Source of the DNA: Paramacrobiotus metropolitanus | Taxonomy: Eukaryota > Tardigrada > Eutardigrada > Parachela > Macrobiotidae | DNA: 64,000 nucleotides | Direction: 5' to 3' | NCBI RefSeq assembly: GCF_019649055.1 | Contig: NW_026570266.1 | Span: forward strand, 62,001-126,000 | In this document: one piece after another, positions 31,581 to 57,144 of the stretch | Numbering within the stretch: position 1 is the stretch's first letter | How the letters are laid out: each line of letters opens with the position of its first letter | Notes under the pieces: generated by a model | The model's database searches: none | Told to the model about the DNA's origin: nothing | What the model saw: the letters and a program-made list of their open reading frames with translations, nothing else | Position numbers and translations under genes: made by a program

Positions 31581-32977
31581 CGCAAAGTATCAGAAACTGG
31601 TATCTTACAGGGTGGCTCTCTTTTTTTTGTTAACAAAATTTGCAGTATGACTGGTTTGTGCAAATAAGAACACCGAACAAAAATGTGAAAGTACTCAGGT
31701 ACGTTCGCAAAACGGTGCGATTTTTGTGCGTTTAAGTGCCCAAGAAAATCGACATTTGACAAATATAGTACGCGAAGTGAATGTGGCCCGGATAAGGGAA
31801 AACAACCTGGCGAAGACAATGGCACGGTGTTTCTTTCTTTATGTGAATGAGATCTACTGTAGCATTTTGCTTGGTCCGGTTTTTTGTAATGTTAACGGTT
31901 ACGGATGTCGTAGTTATGCAGAAGCCTTTCCTCATTGTCTTTCCCCATTGATAGGTCACCTATCAAGGTCACTCACAGAATAGTCATAGAGCAAGGCTAA
32001 ATGGCGCTGTTCTGGTTTCGGGTGCAACTGCCAAACTCAGAATAGGTTTATAATTTTCAGGTCTTGGACTGATTGTGCTATTCACGGTGCAGTAGCTCGA
32101 TATATTGAAACGTCTTCGCTCGATTCTGTGCTTTTTATAAGACGACAAGCTGTTGCTCACTGATCACTGCTTCGCTATTTTTCCAAAAATTTCAGTTTGA
32201 TTGGTTCTCAATTTTGACATAAAGGAGGAAACCGGAGAGCACCGGCGCCAATACACCCGAGTGTACCATCGAGGGAGCTGAAGAAAAGGACGGCGTTATT
32301 TTATATCGAATTAAAAAAGATTAAAAGAAATTAAATCCTCACCCTCACTCATTAAAAGAAACTAAATCCAATTCACGTTTTCAGTTTCTGCTTCTAGAAC
32401 AGCTAAATGGCTTTTAAGTTTTAACCAAACCACGATGGAGCAATTACCTGGTTGAATTTCCGGGGAAGAAACAAACTTCTTAATAGCAGCGGTTTTGGTT
32501 AATCTCTTGTTTGACTGGATCATATTAGCCGTAACGCTATGACTCACACTGCTAAAACAATACTTTTTACTGTTTACTGTTGATTATTATTACGCTTCTC
32601 ATTTTGGGTGACCTCTATCACGAGGCGTACATGTAAATTCTCTCACTACCATGTTTGAATAGAAAATTAGCACAATCGCTCAACCCCGCTGCACGGCCCC
32701 GTTTTTGTTTTCAGATCTGTTACGTGCTGGCTATGATCCGGTTACTTCATGACCAGGTCCTATCTTTCATCCGGATTGGATGCCAATACTACTCGAAAAT
32801 GGTGCGACTGTTTGACAGACAGGCACAATTCGATAACTTTAGGAAACTGAAAATTTAATACTTATGCGCCAGGTGCCTGTGGCAAGTTCTTAACGTTATT
32901 AAATTTGTCTTCCGTTGTTATTTTTAACGGACTGCTTAGTGCTTACGGCTTCTCAGTACATCACATTTCCTGTCATT
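31581..32977. other. divergent intergenic region
   Basis: This lies between the 5' ends of the minus-strand family-A gene and the plus-strand interrupted family-B gene, so both promoters should be here. I see no definite core promoter. Short ORFs on both strands look random. Confidence 0.35.
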
Positions 32978-33071
32978 ATGAACGCGACACCGCGGTACTT
33001 CCGCCAGTTGAATGTGCGTGCTCGCGAGGTGAACTACGGGAACACGGTGCTGGTGCAGCGCGACAACGGTC
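32978..33071 (+). pseudogene. 5' fragment of family-B Tudor-like/F-box gene, cut by the retrotransposon
   Basis: The plus strand opens with an ATG and encodes MNATPRYFRQL, then VNYGNTVLVQRDNG, exactly parallel to the start of the family-B copy at 21995. The coding sequence is broken in the codon after RDNG by the 24-kb element. It resumes in frame at 57149, giving NGQWWLGY across the empty site. As assembled, this first exon cannot be joined to the rest except by transcription through the whole element. Confidence 0.8.
33068..33071. repeat. left target-site duplication (GGTC)
   Basis: GGTC at 33068-33071 abuts the left LTR, and the same GGTC at 57145-57148 abuts the right LTR. Removing one copy and the element restores the host reading frame exactly. 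A 4-bp duplication falls within the 4-6 bp range of Ty3/Gypsy integrases. Confidence 0.9.
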
Positions 33072-33440
33072 TATCACCGTGGACTGTGAAAGAGTCCAGG
33101 ACAGAAGCCCAGACTGACAGGACTCTGTGGAATGTAGAACGTGTCGTACAAGGGAAGAAATGCGCAACGCACGATATCCAGACTACGTTATACAATTTAA
33201 TAATGTCTCCGATCGAGAACCAAAACACACTGACGTTCAATACACTCAGAGAGCCAAATTCCACCTGCTCTCGACAACTCTAATACACTGCGCAGCAGTG
33301 AACACAATGAACGGCAGTAGCCGACCAATCAGAGAAGCGCTGCGTCACAGACGGCAATTCCCCACGGAGTAGTGCAACGAAGCACTCCCGTAGCGCCAGT
33401 AGCGTCACGCAGGTGGACGCAAGGGAGCCATCGCCTCACA
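33072..33440 (-). repeat. 3' LTR, 369 bp
   Basis: In element orientation it begins TGTGAGGCG and ends CACGGTGATA, so the termini are TG...TA instead of the usual TG...CA. It reads the same base for base as 56776-57144 by eye. It contains an inverted CCAAT box (GATTGG in element orientation) and an ATTAAA that could serve as the polyadenylation signal. No TATA box stands out. The sequence immediately upstream (element orientation, CCCAGAGGCA) is only a weak polypurine tract. Confidence 0.93.
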
Positions 33441-34209
33441 TGCCTCTGGGTGGGAGGCTGAGCTCCGTCGAAGCTCGATCCATTCCATTCCGCTCCGATC
33501 GGTGGTCTGTGCGCGCTCTCGTAAAAAAAAACATCAAATCTCTTATTCCTTCTTATATCACATGATTCCAAATGCACAATGTGAATAAAGAGATCTGTAT
33601 AAAAATACTATTCCATTTAAACAGATCAACAGTTAAAAACAGATCAACAAAAGTGGTTAAATGAAACATGTAGACTAGGATCCTCCACTCGACTTGCATA
33701 GGTCACAGGTATCCTGTCCACCGCTTTTCCGCATCTCTTTAGCCGATTCCGCTCCATCTTGAGCATGTTGCGCAGCTTTGTGCGACTTTCATCACATCCG
33801 CTTGTAGGAATAAGGTGCGTATCGAATGTACGTCTTAGGAATACTGCTTCAGCTTTGGAATAGTTGCGTATCAATTGTACGACTTTATAATGAGATCCGG
33901 TTAAGTCATGGAGGGACATCATATAGACAAGCGAAGTTCGCTTCCTCCCTAGTAAGATCATCCTTCTGATCATGGATGTGCGACATCATCTGTTTCGTTC
34001 AGCGTAAGTCATGGAGGAACTTAGCCATCTTTCAATCGGCTTTCAAGCCCAGCTCAGCTTGCCTCCCTGGTAAAGTTCATTGCGTCGCACAATCCATCTC
34101 TTCAACCTTTTTCAGAGAGCCGGCCAAGTGTACCGTAACTACTCTTAACTGAGATGAGTCGATCTATAGGGATGCCGACATAAGCCGTAGCAACTCCCAA
34201 TAATCAGCT
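33441..34209 (-). other. 3' untranslated region of the element
   Basis: 769 bp between the ORF6 stop and the 3' LTR. A 109-codon minus-strand frame (33644-33973) exists but has no recognisable motif and is probably chance. No envelope-like sequence (signal peptide, membrane anchor) is present. Confidence 0.6.
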
Positions 34210-37191
34210 TTACTGATCCATCATCTCGTTCGACCCATCTCCATCGCCTCTGTCGCTCCGTGGACGTTTTCGACCTTGCCCCGGCTGGTTTCTGTCAGAT
34301 GTTCGATCAACTGGTTCTGCTGATCCAGCTGGCACGTCTTCATCCGCTTGAACACGTAAGGCGATGTGACGCGGACCACGACCTTTCACTTGTCGTGAAC
34401 GTTTGATCGCGTCCAAACGATGTCGTGCATCGTTCTCTTCACGTTGCAAGTTCCGATTCTGAGGATCTTCCGCCAATCGTTGTCGGGCATCCTCGTACTG
34501 ATTTCGGATGTTCTGGTTTCGAGCAGCTCGTCTGCCCGGTGTATTCGGAACTTGTGCCGATGTCGGTTGTTTCGGTCCCTTCCATACCAGGTGATCTTTG
34601 ATATATTCACGGACTCGATCTTTCGGCTCGATATACGGCGTGTCCATGGTATCGCGAATACGATTGAGCCGCTCCTGGTACTGTGCTTCATGTATCTCAT
34701 GGAGATTACAATCATCAAACCGTTTCTTGCAGATCGCCAGTTCGTCGTTTGCTTTACGTGCGATCGCATGATGTCTCGCTGGCATCCCTAGTTTAGCAAC
34801 CTTTTCCCGGTACACAGGCGGAACTTCCCCCTTCGTAAAGTTCGAAAACAACTGATTCTGTGTAGGAAAATGGCCCAATCTCGCAGCAAAGACCTTCTGA
34901 CCGAAAACTCGCGATTTGTAGTCGGTAGGGTCAACCGTCAGTCCAATGGCTGCTCGTGCCGCAAGTACCTTGAATGCCGGATTCACGTTACGTAGCACAA
35001 ATTGTGCCACATAGATACTTCTCTCTTTGATCTCTTGGTAATGGAACTGTGTAAATCCCGTATTGTCGATCGTATCCAATGGAACTTCCCATAAGCTCAA
35101 GTCGAGGAGACTCGGTAAGCCACATTGTCGGATTGGTGTATAACACACCATCGCAGATTCGGTGGTGATCTCCAGGCGACCGAGGTTGCTCTCTCTGAGA
35201 TCCGTTTCGTAGTTAGAATCCCGTAGAAATTCACGAAGGTTATGGAGCTGCGCATGTATCATCACTGACTGCTCCGATTCAATTTCCAGTCCAAAGTAGC
35301 GACAGATTTCCGCTCTTTGGGTTTCAATATCATCCATATCATACATTTTACTGATCAACCTGCGTCGTGAATTATCAAAGCGAGAACGATCTCTCCGGTG
35401 ACCATCTTCGCGTCGTCGTTCTGGTCGTTCCTGTTGACGTTTCGATTGATATCGATTCTGCGGTTCCTGACGGCGGTTCTGCGATTCATGAGGGCCTTCC
35501 TGCTCACGTCGCGCCGTACTGGCTGATGTAGACGGTTCAAGATCGCGGTCCAATACCACATTTCTTCTGTGGACAACATTGTCAGTTGATGATGTTTCCA
35601 TCGGTTCGTCTTCGTCCATCGTCACAATCAATGGTTCTACCATATGGACCACTGATTTCACTTTCGGTTGTTTCGGTGGAGTATCATCGCGTTTTCCACT
35701 CGAAGTCCGTTTATGATTGATCGGGAAACCGGCAAAGTAATTCATGTCTTCCTGCCATCCCTTATCGTATGGGCTGCGACTTCGGGCAGGTCCCGCTAAG
35801 GTTACTTCTCGTCGTTCAGGTGTGAACCCTCTGACTTTCGGGTGACAGAAACCAACTCCCATCGGTATCTGTTGGCGTGGTTCATCCCTGCGCGTTTCAT
35901 CTTGACGAGGTTCATCTCGTCGCCGGTTATCTGGTACATGGCGACGATGTGCGCTGGTCTCAATCACTTGATCTCCGTGTCGCACCCATGATCTGCCGCC
36001 TCGGTAATCGTAATCGCGCGAGCGTGATCTATCATCTCTTTCGTTATGATAGTCACGAGTCCTTTCGCGGGAGCGTTCCCTTGACCTTTCCTTTCGAGAG
36101 TCGTAATTTCGTTCATGTGAATACTCTCGTGATCTCTGATGTTCTCTTCTCACTGGTGATCGAGGTCTTTGGAAACCTTCATCGCGCCGAAAACTTTGAA
36201 ACGCTTTCATCACGTCCCGTTCCATCTCGTGTGTCTTTCGAGCTTCTTCGGTCATCTTTTCAATCAACAATTTGGCATCAGGTTTAGGTGCTTCACCTCT
36301 CTCCAATCTCATCTTCTCGCGTACAAGGACTTCAAATAAACTTGCGCGAATTTTCGACGGTTCCTTAATCAGTTCATCGATCTGGAGGATGGTGGCCTTC
36401 ACCCTAGCCTCCGCTTCATCCGCGTTCAGTTGAGCCACGGGAATAGGAACTTTGCCCTGCACCGACCTTTCTCGGTAATCCTGGGCTGCCCGTTGTTCGG
36501 CACGTTTTCTACTGTCTTCCAGATCCTTCTGTCGTTTCTCCTCCATCATCTTTGCTTGATCCGCCTCAAACTTTTTGCGGAAAGCGTCGCATAAGTCATC
36601 TTGTGGAGGTTCGTACGTAGCGTCCCAGCCGATCTCGCCATTCTTGATCGCTCGTCGATATCGATCTTCGATCAGCATCTTTTCTCGTGGTGGAACTGTC
36701 TTCCATGCCTCTGCTGATGTTATGGCTCGGAAAACATCTTTATTCCCGCGAATAGCTTCAGTATATGCCACCAGAGTTCGATTGGGTTCTTTGAAGATGC
36801 AGAACCAGCAAGGATAATCTCCTTTTTCAACCTTGTTGTTTCTGATACAGTCCGGACATTTAGAGTTATAGCCCGTGAACGGATCAATCCACGGTTTTGG
36901 CTGGTTTGCAGCAGGTGCGGTCGCAAGTTGAGATCGCGGGGGTGCCGGCTGACTTCGCACATTCGTAGGTGCGGCTTGATTCTTCGCAGCTATCGGTTGA
37001 CTACCTTGTGGTGCAGGTGCTGCCTGACTTGTGGATGGCGCTACCTGACTTCGTGTAGATGCCGGTGTCGCTTGGTTTTTTCCGGTTGTAGATCGGGCCT
37101 GGTTACTCGCGGCTGCTGCTGGTGCTGCTTGATTTCTCACTGCCGGTGCCGCCGCTTGAGTGTTCGACTTGGTCGGACCTTTTTCCGACAT
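34210..37191 (-). CDS. retrotransposon ORF6, 993 aa, RS-rich protein with zinc-ribbon-like motif
   Basis: Complete ATG-to-stop frame and the last gene of the element. Residues ~1-100 are Ala/Pro/Gln-rich with degenerate repeats of the type RNQAAP. Residues 112-131 carry four cysteines as CPDC and CWFC, a zinc-ribbon-like pair. Residues ~145-190 (AEAWKTVPPREKMLIEDRYR) faintly resemble the third helix of an HMG box. A charged helical stretch follows, then an Arg/Ser-rich segment at ~340-400 (KERSRERSRERTRD), as in RS-domain RNA-processing proteins. Residues ~625-900 look globular, and the C-terminus is basic. It has no signal peptide or membrane helix, so it is not an envelope. A good splice acceptor (ccttaacattgcag) sits 13 nt upstream of the ATG. 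Function is unknown; nuclear nucleic-acid binding is inferred. Confidence 0.8.
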   Translation of the reverse strand: MSEKGPTKSNTQAAAPAVRNQAAPAAAASNQARSTTGKNQATPASTRSQVAPSTSQAAPAPQGSQPIAAKNQAAPTNVRSQPAPPRSQLATAPAANQPKPWIDPFTGYNSKCPDCIRNNKVEKGDYPCWFCIFKEPNRTLVAYTEAIRGNKDVFRAITSAEAWKTVPPREKMLIEDRYRRAIKNGEIGWDATYEPPQDDLCDAFRKKFEADQAKMMEEKRQKDLEDSRKRAEQRAAQDYRERSVQGKVPIPVAQLNADEAEARVKATILQIDELIKEPSKIRASLFEVLVREKMRLERGEAPKPDAKLLIEKMTEEARKTHEMERDVMKAFQSFRRDEGFQRPRSPVRREHQRSREYSHERNYDSRKERSRERSRERTRDYHNERDDRSRSRDYDYRGGRSWVRHGDQVIETSAHRRHVPDNRRRDEPRQDETRRDEPRQQIPMGVGFCHPKVRGFTPERREVTLAGPARSRSPYDKGWQEDMNYFAGFPINHKRTSSGKRDDTPPKQPKVKSVVHMVEPLIVTMDEDEPMETSSTDNVVHRRNVVLDRDLEPSTSASTARREQEGPHESQNRRQEPQNRYQSKRQQERPERRREDGHRRDRSRFDNSRRRLISKMYDMDDIETQRAEICRYFGLEIESEQSVMIHAQLHNLREFLRDSNYETDLRESNLGRLEITTESAMVCYTPIRQCGLPSLLDLSLWEVPLDTIDNTGFTQFHYQEIKERSIYVAQFVLRNVNPAFKVLAARAAIGLTVDPTDYKSRVFGQKVFAARLGHFPTQNQLFSNFTKGEVPPVYREKVAKLGMPARHHAIARKANDELAICKKRFDDCNLHEIHEAQYQERLNRIRDTMDTPYIEPKDRVREYIKDHLVWKGPKQPTSAQVPNTPGRRAARNQNIRNQYEDARQRLAEDPQNRNLQREENDARHRLDAIKRSRQVKGRGPRHIALRVQADEDVPAGSAEPVDRTSDRNQPGQGRKRPRSDRGDGDGSNEMMDQ

Positions 37192-37571
37192 CTTCGGTTT
37201 TAATCTGCAATGTTAAGGCATGTCAAATTATCATTTCGTAACCATCTCCCGATCATTCTTATCATCCTTTACGCCTAAGTTAGGCTACTTCCGTACTGAG
37301 CTGAGACCTTCCTAGCTCATGACGACATTTTTAACGCTGTAACATGGTGACCTTTCCATGTTATCAGTTCTAAGCTCATTCGCCTATTTGACTGATGTGG
37401 TTATCTCATCTTCTCATCTCGTGTAGCACATTCGCTAAGTCATCTCAACCATCTGTTTCAACGTTTTTCCTCTCGGTTATTTCAACTTTTCGCTTTCGCT
37501 AAACTGATATGATGCTGTTTCTTCTGTGATATGTGGTGGACCTTCCTGACCGCATATCACGCATCTCGTGT
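37192..37571 (-). promoter_or_regulatory. ORF5-ORF6 spacer with splice acceptor before ORF6
   Basis: The 380-bp spacer is untranslated. At its ORF6 side, element orientation shows CTTAAC (branch-point-like), then ATTGCAG, with the exon starting at 37204 and the ORF6 ATG at 37191. Combined with the donor upstream of gag (55371-55373), this would give a short leader spliced to ORF6, the strategy retroviruses use for genes downstream of pol. Confidence 0.5.
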
Positions 37572-40500
37572 TCACTTTTTTGCTGATGTGTCAGCCGAAT
37601 CCACTGTCTCAGTCGCTGCTGACACCGTATCTCCAGTTTCTGCTGGTTTCATTTGAGCGTCGCCGGCTGTGGGCTCGGCCGATGCTGGCTGTTGCGATTC
37701 CAAGACAACTTCCTGAGATGCCGGGATGTTCGCTGAATCCACGATGTCCTTCTTAGGGGTATCTTCTGGAAGCTCCTCGGGTTTTGAGAAGATACGCTTG
37801 TTCTTAATCTCAAGAAGGTTATCATCGAGGAGGCTTTCCACCGCTTGTCTGATCACAGCGCGATCTCTTTCGATGTTATAGATTCCCAGCTCGTAGTTCA
37901 CGGCAAAGAAGTTCGATAGATCGTCCCATGTAACTCCCATCGATCCGCCAAGTCTCGGCATTGCCGCGTCGGTAATGGCGATTTTCCAATACTTCAGTTC
38001 CATCTTCAGTCGTGGATGAAGTGTTGGTTGTGGCAGGTAATATGACCATCTGTTAGAGTCCGAGTAACAAAAGCCCAACTTTCCTTCCTTGTAGGCCCTC
38101 TTGGTCATCCTGTCAAAGCTCACACCAGATAGTTTCAAGACTCGGTTGGCACAGATTGTCGTTCTAAGATCTTTTTGAGTCATCGTCTGGAATGGCTCTC
38201 TCGCCAAGATGCGCTTCAGTTCGCACCAAGCGTGGTTCTGATTATCCAATGGAATTCCGAGCATGTAGTCGCGATCTTCTGACGTCGACTCTTTTTCATC
38301 GATTAAGAGCTTCGGAATTGAACTAGATGAGGACTTCGTCGATTTCGGTTCGTTTCTCTGGGTGGGAGCTGAGTCCGTCTCATCATCTTTCGACGCTTCT
38401 TCGGCCGCTATTCCCTCTTCTTGGGAAGTTAGATCGGTTTTCGACTTGCCGCCGCTGGTATTAGCCTGTTTCGATAATGGCAACAGCGATGTCTGTTGTC
38501 TCCGACGGCGCATATCTTCAAGTTCCGCTTCAGTCTGTGCAGTCAACTTGTCCATGGGAGTTACGGCCTTCGTTTTCTCACCAGGTGACTGTTGGCTCGT
38601 CGTAGCTACCTCTCCAGATGTCGGAGGTGCGTCATGTTCCTTGTCCGATCCATAAGCAAGTTCCATTATACCCTTCGGTGTTAATGATTCCTTCAACTTG
38701 TCTGCCTTGATCTTTTCCCTGGCAGCCCGCTTTTGATCTCCCTTCTGTAGCATCACATTCAACATGGGAGTTTCCGGATCATTTCGTTGAGGAATTGGAA
38801 GTTTTTCCATAACTTCGCTGGACGAGAAGTTGCAATAATCATGTATGTCCTCCGGTATAAATCCCAACATGGTATATCTGATCGGAGATCCTTCGTAAGC
38901 ATTGGTAGTGAGGAGTTTACCCTCTTGGAGCATCTGCGTCAACGGCGTCTCAGTGCTCGCTTCGATCTCCGCGATCCGACCCATACCATCCTGCCATAAT
39001 GCATTCATGTATTGGCTGATACGGTGTCGAGTAGATCCCACCGGACTTCTCAAGCCCACAATGGCTACTTCGATCTGTCTTCTTTTATTGGCGTGTGGTT
39101 CGAATAGCTTTTTGTCGATTCCTTTAGTCCTGACTAACTTCGATTTACAACGCCAATCGAGATGTTTCTTAACCAATTGACCCGAATTCAGGGCAAAATC
39201 GATTATCGTATCCAGCTTTGATGGGGTTAAACGTCGGTGTCGCTTATTCAACCATTCTTTAACGCGTTGTCGGAATCTTACTGTCACCGAGGTATCCCCT
39301 CGCGTGCGAAATGTAGCCATAGCGAAATTGTTAGCCTCAATCAGATCATTCTCTGTTAAGGTATCGTCATCATCCCCCAATTCCTCGAAGTCAGGAAAGG
39401 GTTCTTCATCTTCTGGTTCAGAATATTCCAAGTCGCTATTACCCTGTCTCCTGGTATATTGTGCTAATCCGACTTCATCGACGCGTCGAACTGCCGCAGG
39501 TTTAGACTTCTTCTTAGCGCTTTTCTTCTTGGCGCTTTTCTTCTGTTTCGCTAGCGCTGCTTGTTTCTGTTTTTCCAGAGTTGCTTCGAGACTGTTTGGT
39601 GCCGCTTTCAGCTCTCCCGTCTGACTTCGTGTAGCCCGAACCGGAATGTTGGGCTTCGACTTCGAAGCAACCGTCGATGTACTTGGACGACTTGCCCCTG
39701 ATGCTGTCGACTCGCGGGACGTTTCGCGTTTCCCTTTTTCCTTCTGTGCTTTCTCTCGACGTTCTTTTTGAGTCGATGCTGCCATGATCTCTCCCATATT
39801 GATCGCCCTCTTTATTGCGATCGATTTCGGTTTCTTTTCTTCAGGCGATGTTGCTGATTGTATAACACCTTTTTTCGGTGTGGTCGTCGACGATTTCAAG
39901 CTCTCATCGATTTCGAGGACTTCATCATCCTCTTCTGATTCCTCGCTCACGATCTCTTCATCATCAGATGGGGAATGGTCCTTCCTTTTTCCCGCTTTAC
40001 GTTTCTGATCTTTCTGAGATTTCCCTTTGGACTTTTCCGTTCCCGTCTTTCCGGGTTTATCAGTCCCTTTGTCTGATTTCTCCGATTTCTTTGACTTTGT
40101 ATCAGTTTTAGACGAGCTTGGTTTCGACTCCTCTTTAGACGATTTCGATTTAGATTCGTCTTTAGACGATCTTGGCGCTGGATCATCGTCTTCTGAGTCT
40201 TCCTGAACCGTATCTTCCTCGTCGTCATCTTCCTCCTCTTCAAATTCTGCAGGTGGGTGACATCGATCACAATTCGCATCGTTGCATGCCTTGTGATCTG
40301 CTCCCATCATGACCGCGATCGCTCGTTGCATCGATCGTCTGGGGTTATTTTCATCAACTGGTTCATCTTCCATCTGAGGAGCATTATCGCCCGATGGAGC
40401 ATCTTCGGCTTCCATCTGCTCCTCACCTGCACCTTCACCGGCAAAACTTTCCTCTTCAGCCTGTTTGGATTGGACATAAATTTCATGGATTTCGGCCGCT

Positions 40501-43024: not shown

Positions 43025-43137
43025 TAACTTTTATTACCTGCTATAACAATGAAACAATATCCGTTAGCCAGTTTACAACGGTTAGCTTTTACACCTCCCC
43101 AACTCCTGTGCATGCATCATAACGCCCTTTTTTAATC

Positions 43138-49100: not shown

Positions 49101-50217
49101 CTAGTGTCATCTTTTTTGGAGGGTCTAGTTCCTTTTCGAACTTCTTGTCGTTCCAAACTTGGGCAACTTTTATTCCCAGTGCCTCTGGTACTGGGATAGA
49201 CTTTGCCCACTCCATTCCCGGTACGAGAGATCGTTTCGATTCAGCAGCTGCTTCCTTTTGTATGGCTGCGATCTGCTCCATAGTTAACGGAGTTTCATCG
49301 TTCATTCCCAGTGCCTCTGGTATTGGGATAACATCTTTATCCGCTACTTTTCGGTCAGCTTTCGTCGTTCCCTGTGCCTCTGGTACTGGGAGAACGACGT
49401 TTGCCCGTTCTTTCGGTTTAACTGATGATCTCCTTAATCGGGTCGCGATCTCCATTTGGATGGCTGCCATCTTTTCGATTGTTGACAGCTGAGCAAGTGA
49501 ACCTCCCCTTCGTTGGTTCATCATCTGCTTTCCCAGTGCCTCTGGTACTGGGATAGCCTTTTGATCCGGTTTAGCTGCTTTTACAAGTCCGGTGACCTTT
49601 CCGGCTTGAACTTTGACAGCTGATTTCGGCTCATCTTCAACTTCCTCCTCTCCATGATTATCGATCAGGACGAACTTTGTCGCCAGAAAATCATGTCCCA
49701 GTAGAACTTGTGCATCATCCGTTTTAGGTCGTACGTAGAAGGAATGTTGACTGGTTCGTTTCCGCAATGTCACCGGTGCTACGCAATAATGTGTCACGTT
49801 GAAGCCTGATGTGCCGCTAATTCCATTAATCCTCACCAATCGATCTGGTGGGAGCGGTAACACGTGGAGCCCGTTCTTTTCACAAAACGGTCGGCTGATC
49901 AGCGATGTTTCCGCGCCGGTGTCCAACATCGCTAGGACCTTTATGTCACCAATTTTCACCTCGTGTGTGTACGCTTCGATCCTTTTCGGTAAATTGTGCT
50001 TCGATCCATTTTGCACTTTAAGCGTGCGGATAGTACATTTAACTGGTATCAGCGATACAGATCCTGGATCCATATCGACTGCTGAAGATGGCACCTGCTC
50101 CTTCGCTAAGGTGTTATTCTGCTTCAATATCGAACTCAGATGATCGATTCTATGTGGGACATCGGTTCGGATATCGTAAAATTGTCTCTTCTTTCCATCT
50201 TTTGAGCTTTTTATCAT
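43138..50217 (-). CDS. pol: Pol polyprotein (protease, reverse transcriptase, RNase H, integrase), 2359 aa
   Basis: The start ATG overlaps the ORF2 stop (ATGA). Aspartic protease: catalytic DTGAETSLI at ~99, flap partner VLLGHDFL at ~171. A spacer with four copies of PVPEALG-type motifs lies at ~222, 277, 298 and 342, followed by acidic disordered sequence. Reverse transcriptase ~1140-1330: KMDLQSGFWQ, FGVCNGPATFQ, YIDD at ~1281 and FLGLANYYRKF. RNase H ~1425-1560: ECDASKEG, TEWECLAV, RTDHQALT, DALSR. Integrase: zinc site (H-x-H ending CQGC) ~1742-1782, catalytic D (YADLKGP) ~1811, D (HTDRG) ~1874, E (QGQVERQ) ~1909, then a GDFVLIRL C-terminal barrel. A long tail carries about five degenerate SFKPRSAT repeats. 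All catalytic residues are present. It is roughly twice the length of a usual Gypsy Pol, with the extra length in the spacer and tail. Confidence 0.95.
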   Translation of the reverse strand: MIKSSKDGKKRQFYDIRTDVPHRIDHLSSILKQNNTLAKEQVPSSAVDMDPGSVSLIPVKCTIRTLKVQNGSKHNLPKRIEAYTHEVKIGDIKVLAMLDTGAETSLISRPFCEKNGLHVLPLPPDRLVRINGISGTSGFNVTHYCVAPVTLRKRTSQHSFYVRPKTDDAQVLLGHDFLATKFVLIDNHGEEEVEDEPKSAVKVQAGKVTGLVKAAKPDQKAIPVPEALGKQMMNQRRGGSLAQLSTIEKMAAIQMEIATRLRRSSVKPKERANVVLPVPEAQGTTKADRKVADKDVIPIPEALGMNDETPLTMEQIAAIQKEAAAESKRSLVPGMEWAKSIPVPEALGIKVAQVWNDKKFEKELDPPKKMTLDEQILLSEIRDGAIEQLRDHRTEKQPEIIEISSDEIKRTLNHEFSNKEIDDTSNPFACLDKMTLEERISSCHHGYNENPCRVQPQGRCEECRRDAYQDDLRDWPSCNAAIEETKNHVQKEVKSISRTNSMWNQHIERYHWQRYKEWLSCVRNFILTRGRSLLHWDNTVDSSIANLGRSDPKVKQLQLKLNREIVEVFDEGIMWEKAREDLFWDFRVNHLYKGEGTTIIFPTGLGTPVYELFERFYKVSERGDEESFERYWKELEAEFPPLPEKDILELKVYRKRREDEVAGHPVKKKVTFAPTPDGDEYPQRGNDKWCIYEMNPKNELLTENLNANCVFIGNKRPIGYEEDTDEEMIAADDERSPTAFEISQMISEKGAMWKKFQEELEKISAGQQDPVTEAKRDENVCDTGEEGPPVENSRLMSLEEIDQLEGTVPDDRRSISAEQRSLPKVRVARSHPRIAAKYGKKAKETGKPLLKNLKTKKLSDSQGDEGDLSSEEDEVDERPLDKSVAAEDESSDSNSDWTSSSDNSTTSEDSGVNDLSEQEDLLDLDEDDEVDEEKEQDIKVRRTKVQRMKLDRETIRVYSDQRILLKPSVCTRVKVRMGRFVPAKEKLMFTPVFQVETDVQPLAGVTDHRGRHFDLVIANHSIKRQVVKKGQFLGYVEPYDHMENVQINTSTVRNVLFDPEVDDTTKAELTKIIGNLKLGPDLTQAQKNDVYNAFWEFWKVLPTSKKPYGDVKGITHVIDTGDAKPVNCNPARTSWTGREFITKHIEEMLAQDVIEPSDADWSFPVVLAAKKNGDGTMGTRFCVNYIMLNKLTKKNNYPLPNPDELLDACAGNKYYGKMDLQSGFWQIPMDPESINKTTFVTQDGMYRFKRMPFGVCNGPATFQLCMDKVLSKAKRKGCVFGYIDDVIFAGKTWEIFLQNMRNVLQSLVEAGFTIKPTKCEFGMRQMGFLDHILSEDGVRMDPEKITAVSEFKRPQTERQLRSFLGLANYYRKFIAGYAQQTCHLYELLRNDKHVRKDWTEVHTKEFENLKKLLCEGPVLAKFEPAKPTVIECDASKEGIGAVLSQEGHPIAYASRVLHGAERNYGVTEWECLAVVFAVRKFKSYIDYSEFTVRTDHQALTNLLRSETNKVGMNPRLTRWAMALQGHQFKIEYKPGKYCDNADALSRAPIEGPTCHDEEFDEIPNFEDIKKEYDIKEPAVEVWQLFVQMAEEREKRVKDDPATANEPAESTININRVRALTECPIKLLRFPKKKDNRHKPLPRCKIITDWNDLSTATVRIVNLQGDEEEEDDSNLQLRNKQLKDPHLAMIIDELEHLADAQTRSKYEVHYQLWNGILYRIKDNKGRLERSYVVPLSMRRAIIHALHDEKAAGHLGYEKTLAAIRLRYYWDRMSTDAKNYILACQGCQFTKTPRKCPPGKLQEIKVGHPFFRVYADLKGPLLPTKKRAYKYIAVFIDQLTKYVIAVPMKTATAKEFAKVFVKHVILVHGAPHILHTDRGRHFTAEVLSKVTNVFKIKHTFGTAYHPEGQGQVERQMQIIGDGLAQYMKAGNERKFNKYLPYVISGMNRVVHATTGYSAYYMLHGREMTMPEDVVTKTNLPDDYGTPDEWVETMKKNLIFAEEVARCNIRDAYEKNAEIYNKKKSEPNFKIGDFVLIRLPKDTKQGKKEVQSDFKKKYDKVWKILSFPRPNEVEVIEMNPIKEADLKIVSIDRLKPWHPPLTEEREDNEGISEREPRSATGVDEMETEADRGPKDAFELRSATDGVDIAERASFKPRSTLPQSSEDIKETKKKRRGRSKKQDKDFETAVTIKLSKQAGNLAEVAELASNDNDVTVADRTLKQSFKPRTATNINNQQKDAELADRAFKEDLIQQSSFKPRTATENLADPPKDQSKGTELTEHDLKVSFKPHSAAADRQQQLEAVRATAAQLASDIAAAIEQRKVKKTKSKPTPTEFLTRQGADKDAAEEGLLDRITKGRKNTK

Positions 50218-51587
50218 CTCACACCCCTTTTTCTTTGCAGCTTTTCATCGTTGATGATCTTTTCGGTTTCGTTTGGTTGCCCCTTCGCAACTTCTGAGTG
50301 ATCTTTGATCACCTCAGAGATGGTCTGATGCAATGTGGCATCATCTGATTTATCGCGCAGATGCTCAATGATCTCATCTGTGATCTGATCAGCTCGTTTT
50401 AATTCATCTTCTTCGCTGTCTTTCAGCTGATCTGGTGATCTTTCATATGTGACCATCTCATATCCCTTTTGGGTCATCCAATCGATCACCTTTGCCGATA
50501 TTTCATTGTTCGTTTTAGTCGGATCGGTTTGTGAAGACATCCCATCTGTTCGAGCTGGCGATTTATCATTGGGATCTTTCTGTAGCGCTTCGGTTAAGTC
50601 CCGTGACCTTTCAGCTCGTTTTATTGCAAATCCACCATCTGGCAGTTTCTGTAACGGAACTTTTTCTCCGTAATTTGACGGTTTATCAGCTGGGGGAGCA
50701 TTTCGATTCTGATCAGCGAGTGTCGCTTTATATTCGATCTCGTTGAACACTGGGACAGGGTTCATTGACCCTTGAGCTGGTTTCCCGGTAACCAACTCAT
50801 CGAGACGTTTTCTCTGGAACTGAGTCCGCAACTGCTGCATGTCCCAGTAATCTTCTTTTGACATTCTCGCTTTCTGAGATGCTTTCGGCGAAACAGGTAT
50901 CCACATGCCGTGGTTCCCATCAGGTCGATATGCCACCTTTTGCCAGTTTTGCTTCCGCTGCAGCATCTCTGCATCATCCAGTGAGTCATCGGAGATCTGT
51001 TGTGCTTGTTCGCCCTCTTTAAGCTGCACTTTTCGCAGCGTCAGTTCCTTTGCCTGACCTGTTGCAACGATCTTTTGGTCGTCGCTTTTAGCGTTAGCAC
51101 TTGCTCCACGATCTCTCATTTGTGCGGAAGATGGTGACAGGTCATTTCCCTGTTTACGAAGATGCTCTCGGAACTTGGCATGCTGCTCCTCCGCTTCTTT
51201 TTCTTTCATCTTCTTCTTCAAATTCGCTTTTCGGATGATCTCATTTCGTTGAGCACGCCGTTCTTTCAACTTTTCGGCGCTACATTTCCCGTTGTTATTC
51301 GGCTGATCACCAGCAGTACCATTCTGCTGTGGTTTCGCAGTTCCATTCTGCGCAGGTGGTCCTTTCTTCACCTGTGTTGGCATCTTTTGAGCCATCTCAC
51401 TCACAGTACCATTCTGTGGTGACTTCGCAGTACCATTCTGCGGAAGTGGCCTTTTGTCCACTTGTGATGGCATCTTATGAACCATCTCTTTCAGTTGATA
51501 TGACGGCATCTTATTAGCCGTCTCGCCTACAGTCCGATTCTGTGGCTGTGGTACTTTGCCCACTAACGATGGCATCTTATTAGCCAT
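50214..51587 (-). CDS. retrotransposon ORF2, 457 aa, Gag C-terminal extension reached by -1 frameshift
   Basis: The frame lies in -1 phase after gag and is open upstream of its first ATG (51587) through the gag stop to the slippery heptamer GGGAAAC at 51680-51686. It is therefore most likely made as a Gag-ORF2 fusion rather than from its own start. The N-terminal 100 residues contain alternating repeats of NKMPS and QNGTA. Residues ~105-165 are highly charged helical (ERRAQRNEIIRKANLKKKMK). The rest is hydrophilic and probably disordered, with no known domain. The stop overlaps the pol start as ATGA, so Pol may be made by termination-reinitiation. I saw no canonical slippery heptamer in the 11-codon ORF2/pol overlap. 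Confidence 0.75.
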   Translation of the reverse strand: MANKMPSLVGKVPQPQNRTVGETANKMPSYQLKEMVHKMPSQVDKRPLPQNGTAKSPQNGTVSEMAQKMPTQVKKGPPAQNGTAKPQQNGTAGDQPNNNGKCSAEKLKERRAQRNEIIRKANLKKKMKEKEAEEQHAKFREHLRKQGNDLSPSSAQMRDRGASANAKSDDQKIVATGQAKELTLRKVQLKEGEQAQQISDDSLDDAEMLQRKQNWQKVAYRPDGNHGMWIPVSPKASQKARMSKEDYWDMQQLRTQFQRKRLDELVTGKPAQGSMNPVPVFNEIEYKATLADQNRNAPPADKPSNYGEKVPLQKLPDGGFAIKRAERSRDLTEALQKDPNDKSPARTDGMSSQTDPTKTNNEISAKVIDWMTQKGYEMVTYERSPDQLKDSEEDELKRADQITDEIIEHLRDKSDDATLHQTISEVIKDHSEVAKGQPNETEKIINDEKLQRKRGVR

Positions 51588-51622
51588 CTCCTTCGCAGTC
51601 CGATTCTGCGTTCCTCCTTTAT

Positions 51623-51686
51623 CCGGTGGTTTCGGTTCGGGGAGATCAGCAGGCTCACCGGCGCCTACTGATCTTGATCGTTTCCC
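51623..51686 (-). promoter_or_regulatory. -1 programmed ribosomal frameshift signal with H-type pseudoknot (gag/ORF2)
   Basis: In element orientation the slippery heptamer G GGA AAC (51686-51680) is in the gag frame. After a 5-nt spacer comes a 12-bp stem (AGATCAGTAGGC with GCCTGCTGATCT, one G-U pair; 51674-51663 and 51654-51643) with an 8-nt loop. Six loop bases (CCGGTG, 51661-51656) pair perfectly with CACCGG downstream (51628-51623), making an H-type pseudoknot. The gag stop codon (51667-51665) lies inside stem 1. Slipping by -1 enters a frame that stays open into ORF2. This is the classical retroviral arrangement. An upstream GGGAAAT (51728-51722) cannot work because -1 slippage there meets TGA at once. 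Confidence 0.85.
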
Positions 51687-54600
51687 TGGTCCAGTACCTG
51701 CTGTTGCTGCTGGACTTGCTCATTTCCCTGGCCGCCGCCGGGGAAGTTCGCGCCGCCGCCGGCGTTATTCTGGCCGCCGCCGCCACCATTGTTATTGGCG
51801 CGTCCGTTGCCGCCGCCATTCGCGTTGCCGAATCCGCCGCGTCCGTTGCCGCGACCTCGTTCGCGGAAGCCACCTCTTCCTCCGCCGTTATAACCGCCGC
51901 CGCCACCATTTCCTTGGCCGGCGCCGCCGCCGTTCCCCTGTTTGAACGCGGCCCATCGCGCAACCAGGTCGTAGCCGTTCGCTACTGCTTGCCGCCAGCC
52001 GCCTTGAGCTCGCAGCCGTTCCCATTCTCGGGTGGCGAATAAGTTCGGGTTCCGGTTTGGTGGCATGCCAGCAAACATGCAGTTCTGTGCATCGAGGTTA
52101 CCGAATCCACAATTTTGGCACAGCTGCACTCCCTGGGCGATCCATCCATCAATTTGACCGAATTTCCATTCCGTTCGGGAACCCTGCGGCTGCTGATAGT
52201 TGCCGCGATTCTGCTGATAGTTCCCTTGTCGGTTATTGGGCTGATAGTTGCCCTGCCCCTGATTTCGGTTAAAGTTGCCATTGCGTTGGACACCGTTCCA
52301 GTTTCCATTTCCATTTCCGTAATTGGACCTTCCTTGCTGTTGGGGCACCCCTCCCTTCAGGGGACTCGGCATTACATTTGCCGGGGCCATTGGCCTTGCC
52401 TGCGCCTGCGCTTGTATCGCGGCGACCATGGCGTACGAGATCGGCTGCCCAGTTTGGCTATCGATGAATGTCATCTCCTTGCGCGTTGGAGATGGCGATC
52501 TCGTCTGATAACGAACTGGAGACGGTGTGGCTGCATATTGCCTCTGTGCCATCTCGACCTGTCCCGAGCGGATGGTCACGTAATCCGGTTGATTACGTTG
52601 ACCTTCGACCACCTTGTATTTATCTTCGCCAGCTGCCCAAGATCGGAAGAAGTCCTTGATCTCTTTTGGCGTTCTGAACCTCTTCGTTTTCAGTGCCTTA
52701 TAGAGATCGTTATCAACTCTGCATCCGTCGATAAGGAATGCAACCGCTTGCAATTCGGTGATAGCTTTCTTAGCTTTGAACTTCATGATCGCTTGGTAAA
52801 ACTGCTCAAGCGTCTCTTTTCCAGGTCTGAATTTCCTGTTCATGGCTTCACGTAAGCCAAGGACTTCCTCGTTTCGATCTCCAAATTCATCTCTGAACTT
52901 GTTTAGCCATTCGGTGACTGTGTAGACTTCCTCTTCGGCCTCTTCGATGTCTCTTTCGCCGTCGAACCAGATCTTTGCTGGTCCTCTGACGGCACTGGCG
53001 ATGTCGATCAGTATCTGATCATCAGTCATATCATATGTTCGTTGCGTTTCTTTCACCAATCTGATCCATCCGCTTACCGCATCGCGGTTACCGTCAAAGG
53101 TCGCAAGATCGGTTTTGCGGCCCATGTTCTTGATGGATCTGTTGAATTCCCGTTGCCCTCGATCTTCATTTCGATCATTTCGTTGATATCGTTCGTTTCT
53201 GTCATTTCGATCATTTCGATAATCCCCAAAGTATCTGCCGTCATGTTCGTCTCGAGGTGATCGTGCATCTTGGTTAACTCCATCTTTAACTGCCGTTTCA
53301 ATGGGCTGTTGAAACTGTGAGGGGTCGTCTGAGCTCATATGAGGTTGGCGACTACCCGACGGATTCCTATTATCCGAAGTCTCCCCATCCTTTTCCGCTT
53401 TGAAGCCTCCTGTGCCGCCGCCCGTTCGTAGCGGCATCTCAAAGTGGAAGCTCCCGCCCGCTTCTTGTGCCTTACTGTAGCTGGGCGGGGGCGTATCAGC
53501 CGTATCCCTTTTTCCACTTCCTCTTTGCAGGAGTAACTCTTCCCTGTGCTTGTTTGTTACCTGCAGACCTTTATTCTCATCTTCGAGGCGTTTAACTCGA
53601 AGACTGAGCTGCTCGTTCTCCTTTTTCAATTGATCTCGCTCCTGCTTGAGCATGTGGGCGAAGTTCTGCCGCTGAATCGTTTCGTCGTTCAACTCTTTTT
53701 CATCTGTTTTCCTCTGTTGAATCTGCTCAATCAGCTGGTTCATTTGCTGCTCCAGTTGCGCATATGCATCAGCTGCCGATTTCAGATGAGTTCTCGATTG
53801 AGTAACTTCATTTTTGTGAGTCATCGCCGTTTGTGTCATATCGACTAGTTCCGTGTTGAGCTTGATGTTTTCATCTGTCAGCTCACGGATCTTTCTCTGA
53901 TGTTCTTTGCTCTCCAACTCGACTTTGGTCACTTTCGTATCCAATCGTCTCGCTTCCTCTTCCCATCTTTGGCCCCATTCGGCCGCTTTCTGACCAGCTT
54001 CTTTGAGCTGTTCATTCTCTTCGGTGACCTGCTTGATCTCATCTTTAAGTCGTTCCCCTTCGGTAGCTAAGAGCTCTCTCAGGTCTTGAGCCACTTTGAG
54101 AGCATCATCGGCTCGTTTCTGATGATCCTCCGATTCCTTTTGAAGCGTTTCAATGTTCTCATCTTTTAACTTCAAATCGTTCCTGAGTTTGAACATGTCC
54201 TTATTCACCGTCGATAACCGTTTGGTCGCTTCAGCCAGTTTGGTCGCATATTCACTTCGTTTTTCCTCGGCTTCATCTGCCTTTTTGCGCATTTCATCAC
54301 ACTGATCTTTCAATTCGGCTATGTGCCGTGACCTTTCAGCTGTCTCTTCGGACATACTCTCGTTGAGTCCGTTTACGGCTATGTAGCCTTCCATTTCTCT
54401 GTCATCAGCGACTTTTATCGATTCTTCAGCGATCTGTTTTTGTCGTTCATATCGAACTTTCCATTCATCTGCTGAGCTCTCAAGAGCACCTTGTTGCTGT
54501 TCCAAGTCGTAGATACGCGACTGCAGGGATCCCAGTTGAGTTCGGTATTTCTGTTTTTTCTTGATGACCTGGGCCTCTTTTTCTTCCAATAAAGTTTCCA

Positions 54601-55348
54601 GCTCTCGGACTCGTCGTTTCAGATTTGAGGTAGGGCTGTTCGGAGATGGAGATCGTACATTGACGATCTTCCCTGTCTGATTCCGTTCGATCAAACTTTC
54701 GGGGATGTCCTCAAAGGATGTCACTCCCTGAGCTCGATCAGCTTCCTTCATGGCTGTTTTAAACGACATGTTCAATGTCATCTCGTCGTCGGTGAAGTAC
54801 AATTCTTCGTTCTCGCGATTGGAGATCATCTCATCAGATGCCATTGGGCTCTCGAAGAGATCCTCGTTTCCGGTTTCATCTCCAAGTGTGAGATCGTCTA
54901 GCCTGAGTTCATTGAGATCATCTGATGTGATCTTTGGCTGCTCGGTGAGATCGTTTTTAACCAGGTTCTCCTTCTTATCCTGGTCTGATATATCCTTTTG
55001 CGATGTCGGATCCATCTCCGCAGCTTTTTCCAAGTTCGTTCCTTCTTTGGTGACTTCCTGGTTCACCTCGCTGCTTCCCGCCGCAGACGCGGGAGATCGT
55101 TTGAGATCGTCGCTGGAGCTCTCCTGAGCTGACACTGCTTCGAGTGCCTTCTGGTATGTTGCTTCCGACCCACGTGAATCTTTCTTCACGGGGACTTTCG
55201 GTGCTCGAGTATTTCGATCATGTGCAACTGGGCGTGAGAACGGGTATAAGTCCTTCTTATACGGGTTATGTGCACCTTGCTGTGACCCGTGAGAGCTACG
55301 GCTCCCCTGACTGCTGTTGGATGTTGGTTCGGTTGGTTCTTTATCCAT
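51665..55348 (-). CDS. gag: Gag polyprotein with long coiled coil, about 1227 aa
   Basis: The frame is open from 55393 (GTG), but the first ATG is at 55348 (MDKEPTEPTS), 23 nt after a splice-donor-like CAG|GTGCGT. Numbered from 55393: residues 1-250 are polar and disordered; ~258-615 are an almost unbroken coiled coil (LETLLEEKEAQVIKKKQKYR, ENEQLSLRVKRLEDENK); ~755-930 are the Ty3/Gypsy capsid domain (LATFDGNRDAVSGWIRLV, KIWFDGE, FYQAIMKFKAKK, AVAFLIDGC); then a Gln/Asn-rich segment with a small cysteine cluster (CQNC, then QNC) and a Gly-rich RGG tail that probably binds RNA. No standard CCHC zinc knuckle is seen. A coiled coil of ~350 residues in Gag is unusual and suggests a different assembly or trafficking mode. 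Translation past the stop uses the frameshift signal. Confidence 0.9.
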   Translation of the reverse strand: MDKEPTEPTSNSSQGSRSSHGSQQGAHNPYKKDLYPFSRPVAHDRNTRAPKVPVKKDSRGSEATYQKALEAVSAQESSSDDLKRSPASAAGSSEVNQEVTKEGTNLEKAAEMDPTSQKDISDQDKKENLVKNDLTEQPKITSDDLNELRLDDLTLGDETGNEDLFESPMASDEMISNRENEELYFTDDEMTLNMSFKTAMKEADRAQGVTSFEDIPESLIERNQTGKIVNVRSPSPNSPTSNLKRRVRELETLLEEKEAQVIKKKQKYRTQLGSLQSRIYDLEQQQGALESSADEWKVRYERQKQIAEESIKVADDREMEGYIAVNGLNESMSEETAERSRHIAELKDQCDEMRKKADEAEEKRSEYATKLAEATKRLSTVNKDMFKLRNDLKLKDENIETLQKESEDHQKRADDALKVAQDLRELLATEGERLKDEIKQVTEENEQLKEAGQKAAEWGQRWEEEARRLDTKVTKVELESKEHQRKIRELTDENIKLNTELVDMTQTAMTHKNEVTQSRTHLKSAADAYAQLEQQMNQLIEQIQQRKTDEKELNDETIQRQNFAHMLKQERDQLKKENEQLSLRVKRLEDENKGLQVTNKHREELLLQRGSGKRDTADTPPPSYSKAQEAGGSFHFEMPLRTGGGTGGFKAEKDGETSDNRNPSGSRQPHMSSDDPSQFQQPIETAVKDGVNQDARSPRDEHDGRYFGDYRNDRNDRNERYQRNDRNEDRGQREFNRSIKNMGRKTDLATFDGNRDAVSGWIRLVKETQRTYDMTDDQILIDIASAVRGPAKIWFDGERDIEEAEEEVYTVTEWLNKFRDEFGDRNEEVLGLREAMNRKFRPGKETLEQFYQAIMKFKAKKAITELQAVAFLIDGCRVDNDLYKALKTKRFRTPKEIKDFFRSWAAGEDKYKVVEGQRNQPDYVTIRSGQVEMAQRQYAATPSPVRYQTRSPSPTRKEMTFIDSQTGQPISYAMVAAIQAQAQARPMAPANVMPSPLKGGVPQQQGRSNYGNGNGNWNGVQRNGNFNRNQGQGNYQPNNRQGNYQQNRGNYQQPQGSRTEWKFGQIDGWIAQGVQLCQNCGFGNLDAQNCMFAGMPPNRNPNLFATREWERLRAQGGWRQAVANGYDLVARWAAFKQGNGGGAGQGNGGGGGYNGGGRGGFRERGRGNGRGGFGNANGGGNGRANNNGGGGGQNNAGGGANFPGGGQGNEQVQQQQQVLDQGNDQDQ

Positions 55349-56763
55349 TGTGATCGGATAACTGTGACGCACCTGTTGATTTTGCTCACACACACGTTAT
55401 AATGAGATCGTTTTAGGTCCCTGAGATCGCTTTTTAGCTGAACTACTTCGATCAAGTTCGATTTTAAAGGTCACTTTTTTGACAAAAAGATCGAGAGGTT
55501 TGCCTCAGAAATGATCTCCTTCAGCTGCTAATATCGATTAAACTGCTAGGAAGATCGTTCGAAGTTCGTATTCGGTTAAATTAGATGATCTCAGGTCATC
55601 TATAAAGGTCACTATCTGATCTGATCTGATCTCAAAGGTCACTGATGATCTCGAGATGATCGATCTCCGAGATGGTCACTTTTCCGTCAACTCAGTTCAA
55701 TTAAAAACAGCTTCCTTTAACTGAAATTAGATTGTTTACGATGAGAGGAGATCGTTTTAACTGATGAAAGATCGTTGGGAGATCGTTTTAGATCGATCTG
55801 ATCCGATGTCAAGATCACCGAGGATCTCGAGATGATCGATCTCTGAGGTGGTCACTTTTTGGTCACTTCAATTCAATTAAAACTAACTTCCTTTAGCTAA
55901 ATTTAGATCGTTTCCAATGAAAAGAGATCGATCTCACTGCTGGGAGATCGTTAGGAGATCGTTTTAGATCGTTTTTACCGTTGAAAATTTTGACCAATCA
56001 GCGTCCGTTTAACTGACCAATCACGTGTGCCCGTTGAAATTTTCTGACCTGCCTGACGTCACAGGTCGACGGCCAGACTTGCGCGCCGTGTGCAAAAGCT
56101 ACGCCTACGTCTAGCTCAGCTCAATACGGACCAATGAAAATTGCGCTTTCTACACTTCAGCCAATCCGATAATTAATACGGTTTTTTACCTGTCTACCGT
56201 TCCGATCCCGCGAAAAGATGATCCAGATGATCCAGATGATCCAGATGATCTTCTCTACAGTCCGATCCCGCGCAGCCGTATTCCGCACGGTTGTGGCGCC
56301 TTCCTGTCCGACCTAATCTGCCTTCTGCTGGGCTTGTCAGGCCTACCAGCAGGTCGCTCTACAACCAATTTGATGGATCGCGTAAACTGACTCTTGGCAC
56401 CTCCTTCGGTGCTGCCAACTCGTGGCTTCTCGGCTCTTGTGCCCGACAGCCTTGACCCCAACAAGAGGTGCCCGCTGCCTAGCAGAGGAAACAGTACAAG
56501 TTCTCCGACAGGAGAGGTCTTGCGCCGCAGCCTTCTGCCGTCTGATTCGATGTGCATGACGAGTTCTCCTACAGGAGACTCTCTAGTCGGTGCTGCTTTT
56601 AGAGCTGATAATCCGATGAGTGCGCCTTGCTTCAGATGAGGAAAAACCAGTGCCTTACTGGTGAAATGAGATCAGGTTGATCCAGATCAATGTGGCCGTT
56701 CGCCAAACAGATAATCGTGGCCGTTCGCCAAACAGATGACAACTCAGAAACCGTCTGTTCACG
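55349..56763 (-). promoter_or_regulatory. element leader (5' untranslated region), GATC-rich, with splice donor
   Basis: About 1.4 kb between primer site and gag. A splice donor CAG|GTGCGT (exon end 55373) lies just upstream of the gag ATG. From about 55490 to 55980 GATC occurs about 26 times where about 2 are expected. Two tandem copies of a ~176-bp unit start at about 55647 and 55823. A 9-bp tandem repeat (GATGATCCA, about 3.5 copies) lies at 56217-56250. A CRE-like TGACGTCA palindrome is at 56054-56061. In retroelements this region normally holds packaging and dimerisation signals, which is the likely use here. Confidence 0.65.
55647..55998 (-). repeat. tandem 176-bp GATC-rich leader repeat, two diverged copies
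   Basis: Both copies share GATCTCGAGATGATCGATCT near their start, then GGTCACTTTT, TCAATTAAAA, CTTCCTTTA and GAGATCGTTTTAGATCG at matching spacing. They differ by scattered substitutions, so the duplication is older than this insertion and is probably a property of the element family. Confidence 0.75.
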
Positions 56764-56775
56764 GCTCTGCTACCA
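56764..56775 (-). other. primer binding site, initiator Met-tRNA type
   Basis: Directly after the 5' LTR (no spacer, element orientation) comes TGGTAGCAGAGC. Its complement GCTCTGCTACCA matches the 3' end, CCA included, of animal initiator methionine tRNA (12 nt for the fly-type sequence as I recall it). This sets the boundary of the 5' LTR independently of the LTR comparison. Confidence 0.85.
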
Positions 56776-57144
56776 TATCACCGTGGACTGTGAAAGAGTC
56801 CAGGACAGAAGCCCAGACTGACAGGACTCTGTGGAATGTAGAACGTGTCGTACAAGGGAAGAAATGCGCAACGCACGATATCCAGACTACGTTATACAAT
56901 TTAATAATGTCTCCGATCGAGAACCAAAACACACTGACGTTCAATACACTCAGAGAGCCAAATTCCACCTGCTCTCGACAACTCTAATACACTGCGCAGC
57001 AGTGAACACAATGAACGGCAGTAGCCGACCAATCAGAGAAGCGCTGCGTCACAGACGGCAATTCCCCACGGAGTAGTGCAACGAAGCACTCCCGTAGCGC
57101 CAGTAGCGTCACGCAGGTGGACGCAAGGGAGCCATCGCCTCACA
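56776..57144 (-). repeat. 5' LTR, 369 bp
   Basis: Same sequence as 33072-33440 with no difference that I could see. It drives the element from right to left, antisense to the host gene it interrupts. A frame starting with GTG in the LTR runs into the host exon without a stop, but has no ATG, so a fused host protein from the LTR is unlikely. Confidence 0.93.

Follow-up and report, generated by a model that had tools for sequence, protein, structure and literature searches.

Giant long terminal repeat (LTR) retrotransposons with excess coding capacity have been described in very few lineages, and a 2019 review (PMC6431247) gives the planarian Burro as the Gypsy-like case in animals. As summarized there, Burro, longer than 30 kb when its LTRs are counted, encodes accessory open reading frames (ORFs) besides a 4,873 amino acid ORF1 polyprotein containing MATH, BIR, ankyrin and BCL2-like motifs; the plant Ogre elements owe their size largely to LTRs of 1.9–6.5 kb, their internal region being 11–13 kb. 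Cer1 of Caenorhabditis elegans is an LTR element with a single spliced accessory gene, CERV, whose product shares sequence with Gag and is needed for export of the genomic RNA; related species have TTTCAG or TTGCAG as the last splice acceptor (PMC10309623). Here we describe a 24-kb element from the tardigrade Paramacrobiotus metropolitanus (genome size 169.8 Mb), located in a stretch of 64,000 nucleotides (contig NW_026570266.1, positions 62,001–126,000), hereafter the window. The main text of the genome paper (PMC8277472) contains no word starting with "transpos" or "retro" and gives a repeat content of 29.75%. A literature search that reached few subscription journals or preprints showed, among the entries listed, neither a giant LTR element described from a tardigrade nor a retrotransposon that encodes a linker-histone-like protein.

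Like Burro, the window element comes from an animal and is Gypsy-like, exists in many copies, has surplus coding capacity and has an internal region exceeding 20 kb. Unlike Burro, it carries four genes as separate ORFs between LTRs of 369 bp, and Pfam scans of its ORFs gave no MATH, BIR, ankyrin or BCL2 domain. Unlike Ogre, it has an internal region of 23.3 kb and extra genes after pol. The likeness to Cer1 is one of layout, splicing in the window element being read from candidate signals. It shares size class or layout with these elements, not gene content, and represents a giant LTR retrotransposon, a kind already known, in a new variant.

Element structure and insertion site

We consider it likely, with good confidence, that the window contains a recent insertion of a giant Ty3/Gypsy-type element with a retrovirus-like layout, a frameshifted Gag-Pol and spliced accessory genes. 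The boundaries, the frames, the selection acting on them, the conserved motifs and a family of copies are direct observations. The proposed layout is LTR - gag - (-1 frameshift) - pol - ORF3 - ORF4 - LTR. Full-length RNA would serve as both genome and gag-pol mRNA, with a -1 frameshift at GGGAAAC giving Gag-Pol, and a donor in the 5' leader would be spliced to acceptors upstream of ORF3 and ORF4 to give subgenomic mRNAs for both accessory proteins. ORF3 would bind nucleic acid through winged-helix modules; ORF4, with its CxxC pairs and RS/RE tract, would work on the element's own RNA, in splicing or nuclear export. The features are as follows, in the direction of the element.

57145–57148, target site duplication GGTC, upstream side
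56776–57144, minus, 5' LTR, 369 bp, TGTGAG...GTGATA, identical to the 3' LTR
56765–56775, minus, primer binding site (PBS) TGGTAGCAGAG, directly after the 5' LTR
56653–56660, minus, candidate splice donor CAGTAAGG in the leader, inside a small hairpin ACCAGT/ACTGGT (9 of 9 aligned rows, window included)
55618–55971, a pair of 176-bp direct repeats within the 5' leader
51665–55348, minus, ORF1, Gag-like, 1,227 amino acids from the ATG, with a coiled-coil N-terminal half and a Gly/Gln-rich tail
51679–51686, minus, slippery heptamer GGGAAAC (+G) for the putative -1 frameshift into Pol (8 of 8 rows, window included)
51623–51673, minus, 11-bp stem 6 nt past the slippery site, with a possible pseudoknot CCGGTG/CACCGG
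50214–51719, minus, ORF B, N-terminal part of Pol, without a known domain; it shares its frame with the remainder of Pol in 5 of 7 other copies
43138–50244, minus, Pol (ORF C), 2,368 amino acids, with protease, reverse transcriptase (RT), RNase H and integrase by Pfam
43033–43055, minus, 3' splice-site-like motif GTTTCATTGTTATAG, then donor-like AGGTAA (all 10 rows, window included, drawn from two subfamilies)
37572–43024, minus, ORF3 (ORFs D and E), split in the window copy, about 1,630–1,850 amino acids in one frame in several other copies
41406–41599, 57-bp tandem repeat within which the ORF3 frame changes
38847–39101, minus, ORF3 module WH2, faintly linker-histone-like in a relative
38019–38249, minus, ORF3 module WH3, predicted winged helix
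37758–38015, minus, ORF3 module WH4, faintly linker-histone-like in relatives
37526–37560, 37337–37366 and 37298–37318, minus, three conserved hairpins between ORF3 and ORF4
37203–37218, minus, 3' splice-site-like motif TTGCAG just upstream of the ORF4 ATG
34210–37191, minus, ORF4, about 990 amino acids, CxxC...CxxC, RS/RE-rich tract and conserved C-terminal part
33441–34209, minus, 3' untranslated region, ending in CCCAGAGGCA ahead of the LTR (all 10 rows, window included, end alike)
33072–33440, minus, 3' LTR, 369 bp
33068–33071, target site duplication GGTC, downstream side

At 33072–57144 the element measures 24,073 bp, 23,335 bp of it internal, and its sense strand is the minus strand (57144 to 33072). 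Paired LTRs, a PBS, a short target duplication and the order protease, RT, RNase H, integrase place it in the Ty3/Gypsy class, and a database search returned Gypsy-type Pols among its named relatives. The top-scoring Pol outside the host carries the database name K02A2.6-like and comes from the pseudoscorpion Cordylochernes scorpioides (58% of the query aligned, at about 39% identity). In a quick tree of 53 of 120 sequences, which had no copia or BEL out-group, the tardigrade elements formed one clade (SH-aLRT 100) without a supported sister. The PBS TGGTAGCAGAG presumably matches initiator tRNA-Met; the priming tRNA itself was not found. An Rfam scan of the element gave no match up to E 0.1.

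The two LTRs match at 369 of 369 positions. The element lies inside a host exon, and once it is excised together with one GGTC the host frame reads open through the junction; a similar host frame is found at 21816–22454. That the window element is a recently inserted copy is supported. The host gene family concerned (32903–33071 with 57149–57990, and 21120–22454), which has no Pfam match, has one member interrupted by the element and another at 21–22 kb.

An earlier note on this DNA, made from the letters alone, had proposed an apparently intact giant Ty3/Gypsy-type LTR retrotransposon that moved very recently, citing identical LTRs, a target duplication, a primer site and open gag and pol. 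The class is borne out by the LTRs, the PBS and the Pfam domains, and recent movement by the identical LTRs and the GGTC on both sides. Intactness had to be given up, since Pol and ORF3 each change frame here, unlike in most of seven other copies.

Gag, Pol and putative frameshifting

Six long ORFs are visible in the element. Comparison of Gag with Pfam gave weak matches alone (E 2.2 or worse) and nothing convincing; a capsid-like region in ORF1, judged by eye, had no match under E 0.15 in the Protein Data Bank (PDB). ORF C forms one open frame with protease (residues 95–188), RT (1182–1338), RNase H (1407–1533) and integrase (1741–1913), while a Pfam scan of the remaining ORFs gave nothing at E 0.1. 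GGGAAAC sits in the Gag frame ahead of the Gag stop, and the -1 frame runs on into Pol. The 6-nt spacer, the 11-bp stem and the possible pseudoknot partner were confirmed by script in six copies, and the folding of this region beats all 200 shuffles (z -3.21, using a program without pseudoknots). Pol continues in one frame over the junction of ORFs B and C in five of seven copies (C24, C115, C133, C6 and C167, named by contig; not C76 or C196), and open frames of about 3,000 amino acids covering the RT occur elsewhere in the genome.

Accessory genes

ORF3 is unbroken across the junction of ORFs D and E in five of the same seven copies (C76, C24, C133, C6 and C167). In C115 the junction is joined by a short match alone, with a frame change further on, and C196 is not in one frame. 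Open frames of about 1,780–1,850 amino acids over ORF3 occur elsewhere in the genome. Since B and C, and D and E, share frames in most copies and such long open frames exist, the family has four genes: gag, pol, ORF3 and ORF4. The earlier note had called the content outside gag and pol new, and this stands: no Pfam family was matched there at its cut-off, and among about 8,000 candidates scored for each, the proteins related to ORF E (three) and to ORF4 (four) were all P. metropolitanus entries.

The window ORFs were compared with seven copies in matching frames, over stretches of more than 45% identity and stop-free codons. The ratio of nonsynonymous to synonymous substitution rates (dN/dS) was 0.09–0.14 for Gag, 0.20–0.36 for ORF B, 0.10–0.20 for ORF C, 0.10–0.18 for ORF D (C24: 0.43), 0.13–0.25 for ORF E and 0.09–0.13 for ORF F, which is ORF4 (C196: 0.53, on 96 codons). 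Third positions held 52–66% of the substitutions in the six ORFs. Purifying selection on ORF3 and ORF4 is comparable with that on Pol. From the low ratios and the third-position shares, ORF3 and ORF4 are genes selected for, most simply as the element's own.

Copies and subfamilies

As the earlier note had suggested, the genome was searched for copies with the LTR and the RT; all counts from the LTR, RT and ORF3 searches are lower bounds. At least 40 LTR places (the best 40 of 78 candidates scored) and at least 107 RT places (the best 107 of 1,682) were found. For the last part of ORF3, 150 of 172 candidates were scored and at least 151 matches obtained; judged by eye, these form about four groups by similarity. 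Besides the window, nine LTR pairs lie 22.7–23.6 kb apart, start to start (C76, C196, C24, C115, C6, C133, C167 and two on C1), and one further pair on C1 is 27.8 kb apart. Duplications of 4 bp flank five of seven copies compared (exact in C76, C24, C133 and C6; in C97 after a one-base boundary shift by eye). The LTRs of a pair differ by no substitution in C6 and C97, two in C133, five in C115, one over 268 bp in C24 (partial 3' LTR), four plus one gap column in C76 and four plus six gap columns in C167.

These copies bear on the two ways in which the earlier note said it could fail, namely a misassembly, or a short LTR element with unrelated DNA joined in. The published assembly was built from Nanopore and Illumina reads (PMC8277472), so an assembly error at the two frame changes of the window copy is possible, and both the Nanopore reads and those frame changes speak for a misassembly. 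For the family both cases fail, because independent copies on other contigs share the gene order, with the LTR spacing and 4-bp duplications given above, and because the ORFs evolve as coding sequence. We regard either case as extremely improbable.

The ORF3-ORF4 order is common to at least three divergent groups (the window group, C97, and C103/C1). C97:70681-94692 (about 24.0 kb, identical LTRs) has an RT 98% identical to that of the window, yet its ORF3 and ORF4 show about 47% and 58% identity, respectively, and its LTRs match in short stretches only, which suggests module exchange between subfamilies. In a second group, with RT identity of about 93%, C103 has an ORF3 of 1,633 amino acids in one frame and an ORF4 of 916 amino acids; a search with this ORF4 type gave 55 match rows at 50 loci.

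On a different reading, a gag-pol retrotransposon of ordinary type, about 15 kb long, has acquired ORF3 and ORF4 as passengers that do nothing for its life cycle. Copies lacking all or most of both genes do exist (C9:1907726 and C35), and of the 107 RT places scored, 45 are followed by a scored accessory match and 62, for whatever reason, are not, the best candidates alone having been scored. C35:562755-578107 (15.4 kb between outer LTR ends), the only one of five shorter LTR pairs looked at, has the RT, the end of Pol, an ORF3 remnant and the 3' region, and no ORF4; the remnant marks it as a deletion product. Passengers would also not be expected to be under selection comparable with that on Pol and to keep one order across three or more divergent groups, and we judge this reading improbable. 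The shorter relatives may depend on proteins of the longer copies.

Candidate expression signals

Ahead of ORF3, GTTTCATT is followed by TTA.AG and AGGTAA in 10 of 10 rows, window included, and the ORF3 start AGTTAATGGA is present in all nine rows long enough to include it. TTGCAG or TTACAG lies 13–16 nt upstream of the ORF4 ATG in 10 of 11 copies, window included. Selection like that on Pol, recurrence in divergent subfamilies and conserved acceptor-like motifs together suggest that ORF3 and ORF4 are probably made from spliced mRNAs. In the hairpins between the two genes, four pairs change on both sides, in every case in C103 and C1, two related copies; no variation occurs in the third hairpin.

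The element could also be real and its extra ORFs functional, with these being translated from unspliced RNA (by reinitiation or internal entry) or as spliced Gag fusions. Three database gene models (P0001, P0002 and P0003) fuse the Gag coiled coil to ORF3, a second, donor-like CAGTAAGG lies within gag at 53470–53477, and CERV of Cer1 shares sequence with Gag (PMC10309623). The three models use three different joins and so look like automatic chaining; the donor motif of the leader and the acceptor motifs beside the ATGs are kept in most or all aligned copies. We hold this alternative to be unlikely, although it deserves some weight.

The position of ORF3 and ORF4 after pol, with splice-like acceptors, is also that of a retroviral env, and the element might then be an endogenous retrovirus in which one of them is the envelope gene. 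None of the six window ORFs contains a 19-residue stretch of mean hydropathy above 1.6, and none matches a Pfam envelope family, making this very improbable.

Several observations weigh against a giant element with frameshifted Gag-Pol and spliced accessory genes. In the window copy, Pol changes frame at about 50.21–50.24 kb and ORF3 at about 41.50–41.58 kb. No clear polypurine tract, and no long purine run, precedes the 3' LTR, and the anticodon stem of a vertebrate-type initiator tRNA has no occurrence in the genome. C115 and C167 have no exact target duplication, and C167 lacks the AG of the ORF4 acceptor. Five LTR pairs are only 11.7–16.0 kb apart (C17, C6, C35, C265 and C1). At C9:1907726 the 3' region lies within about 5.3 kb of the RT, leaving no room for both accessory genes, and the 10 kb fetched there had no ORF3 or ORF4 match; this copy and C35 indicate that ORF3 and ORF4 are not kept by every copy. 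The identity and no-stop filters lower dN/dS somewhat, the splice-motif counts describe conservation among aligned copies, and the hairpin covariation is weak and slightly unfavourable (term +0.79). Frameshifting, splicing and the roles of ORF3 and ORF4 are all deduced from sequence, and the structure models of the two accessory proteins are poor overall (mean pLDDT 44.7 for ORF4 and 38.0 for ORF3).

ORF3 and ORF4 products

ORF3 is predicted to have at least one winged helix, WH3. Foldseek with the ORF3 model returned 497 matches up to E 10, none of them under 0.001; a second look by VIA-align took in mainly WH3. The Pfam linker-histone model (PF00538) matched WH2 or WH4 in three of seven scanned ORF3 proteins, the best with 21.7 bits (E 2.4e-4) against a cut-off of 22.4 bits; the window's own ORF E had no match to this model. 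Pfam scans of the cut-out WH2 and WH4 modules were weak and mixed, with a linker histone in two of six members each (E 0.17 and 0.033). When the four ORF3 modules were run as profiles against PDB sequences, linker histones did not turn up, an outcome that weighs against close kinship with H1. The linker-histone reading is a lead; ORF3 probably binds nucleic acid via winged-helix modules.

On the genome, PF00538 gave 61 matches. At least 14 lie on WH4, all under the cut-off, as judged against 41 ORF3 module places picked by contig. One match, at 104.9 bits on C33, resembles a genuine H1, and seven others over the cut-off are not among the places compared. Pairs of linker-histone-like matches about 590 bases apart, with one per pair over the cut-off, occur on C296, C42, C7, C37, C63 and C160, off the ORF3 places compared; these are perhaps another repeated family with such domains.

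The C-x2-C pairs, RS/RE-rich tract and C-terminal part of ORF4 are kept in relatives at 48–52% identity. Its predicted model was too poor for a fold search, which gave no match under E 5. By analogy with CERV, which serves Cer1, ORF4 probably acts on the element's own RNA, in splicing or nuclear export.

Other features of the window

Arrays of a 42-bp tandem repeat at 22550–23942, 26559–26726 and 26946–28085 flank about 24–26.5 kb in opposite orientations, and beside them one coding stretch is present in inverted copy (21816–22454, minus; 26814 onward, plus). An ORF at 13484–14305 (minus) has no Pfam match at E 0.01; its end resembles the C-terminal part of non-LTR retrotransposon proteins.

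Significance

The element is a further animal giant, with many copies, two selected accessory genes and readable candidate signals, in which element growth and accessory roles become testable. P. metropolitanus is described as easy to culture, and genome and transcriptome data are published (PMC8277472, PMC11191345). A bolder proposal, which we regard as doubtful, is that this lineage has become as complex as a complex retrovirus with no envelope: ORF3, as a winged-helix, linker-histone-like protein, would condense the 24-kb cDNA or direct it to chromatin, and ORF4, as an SR-like RNA regulator, would act on the hairpins between the two genes and so export the unspliced genome. If true, the roles of ORF3 and ORF4 would be how the element outgrows the limit of about 10 kb that is usual for such elements.
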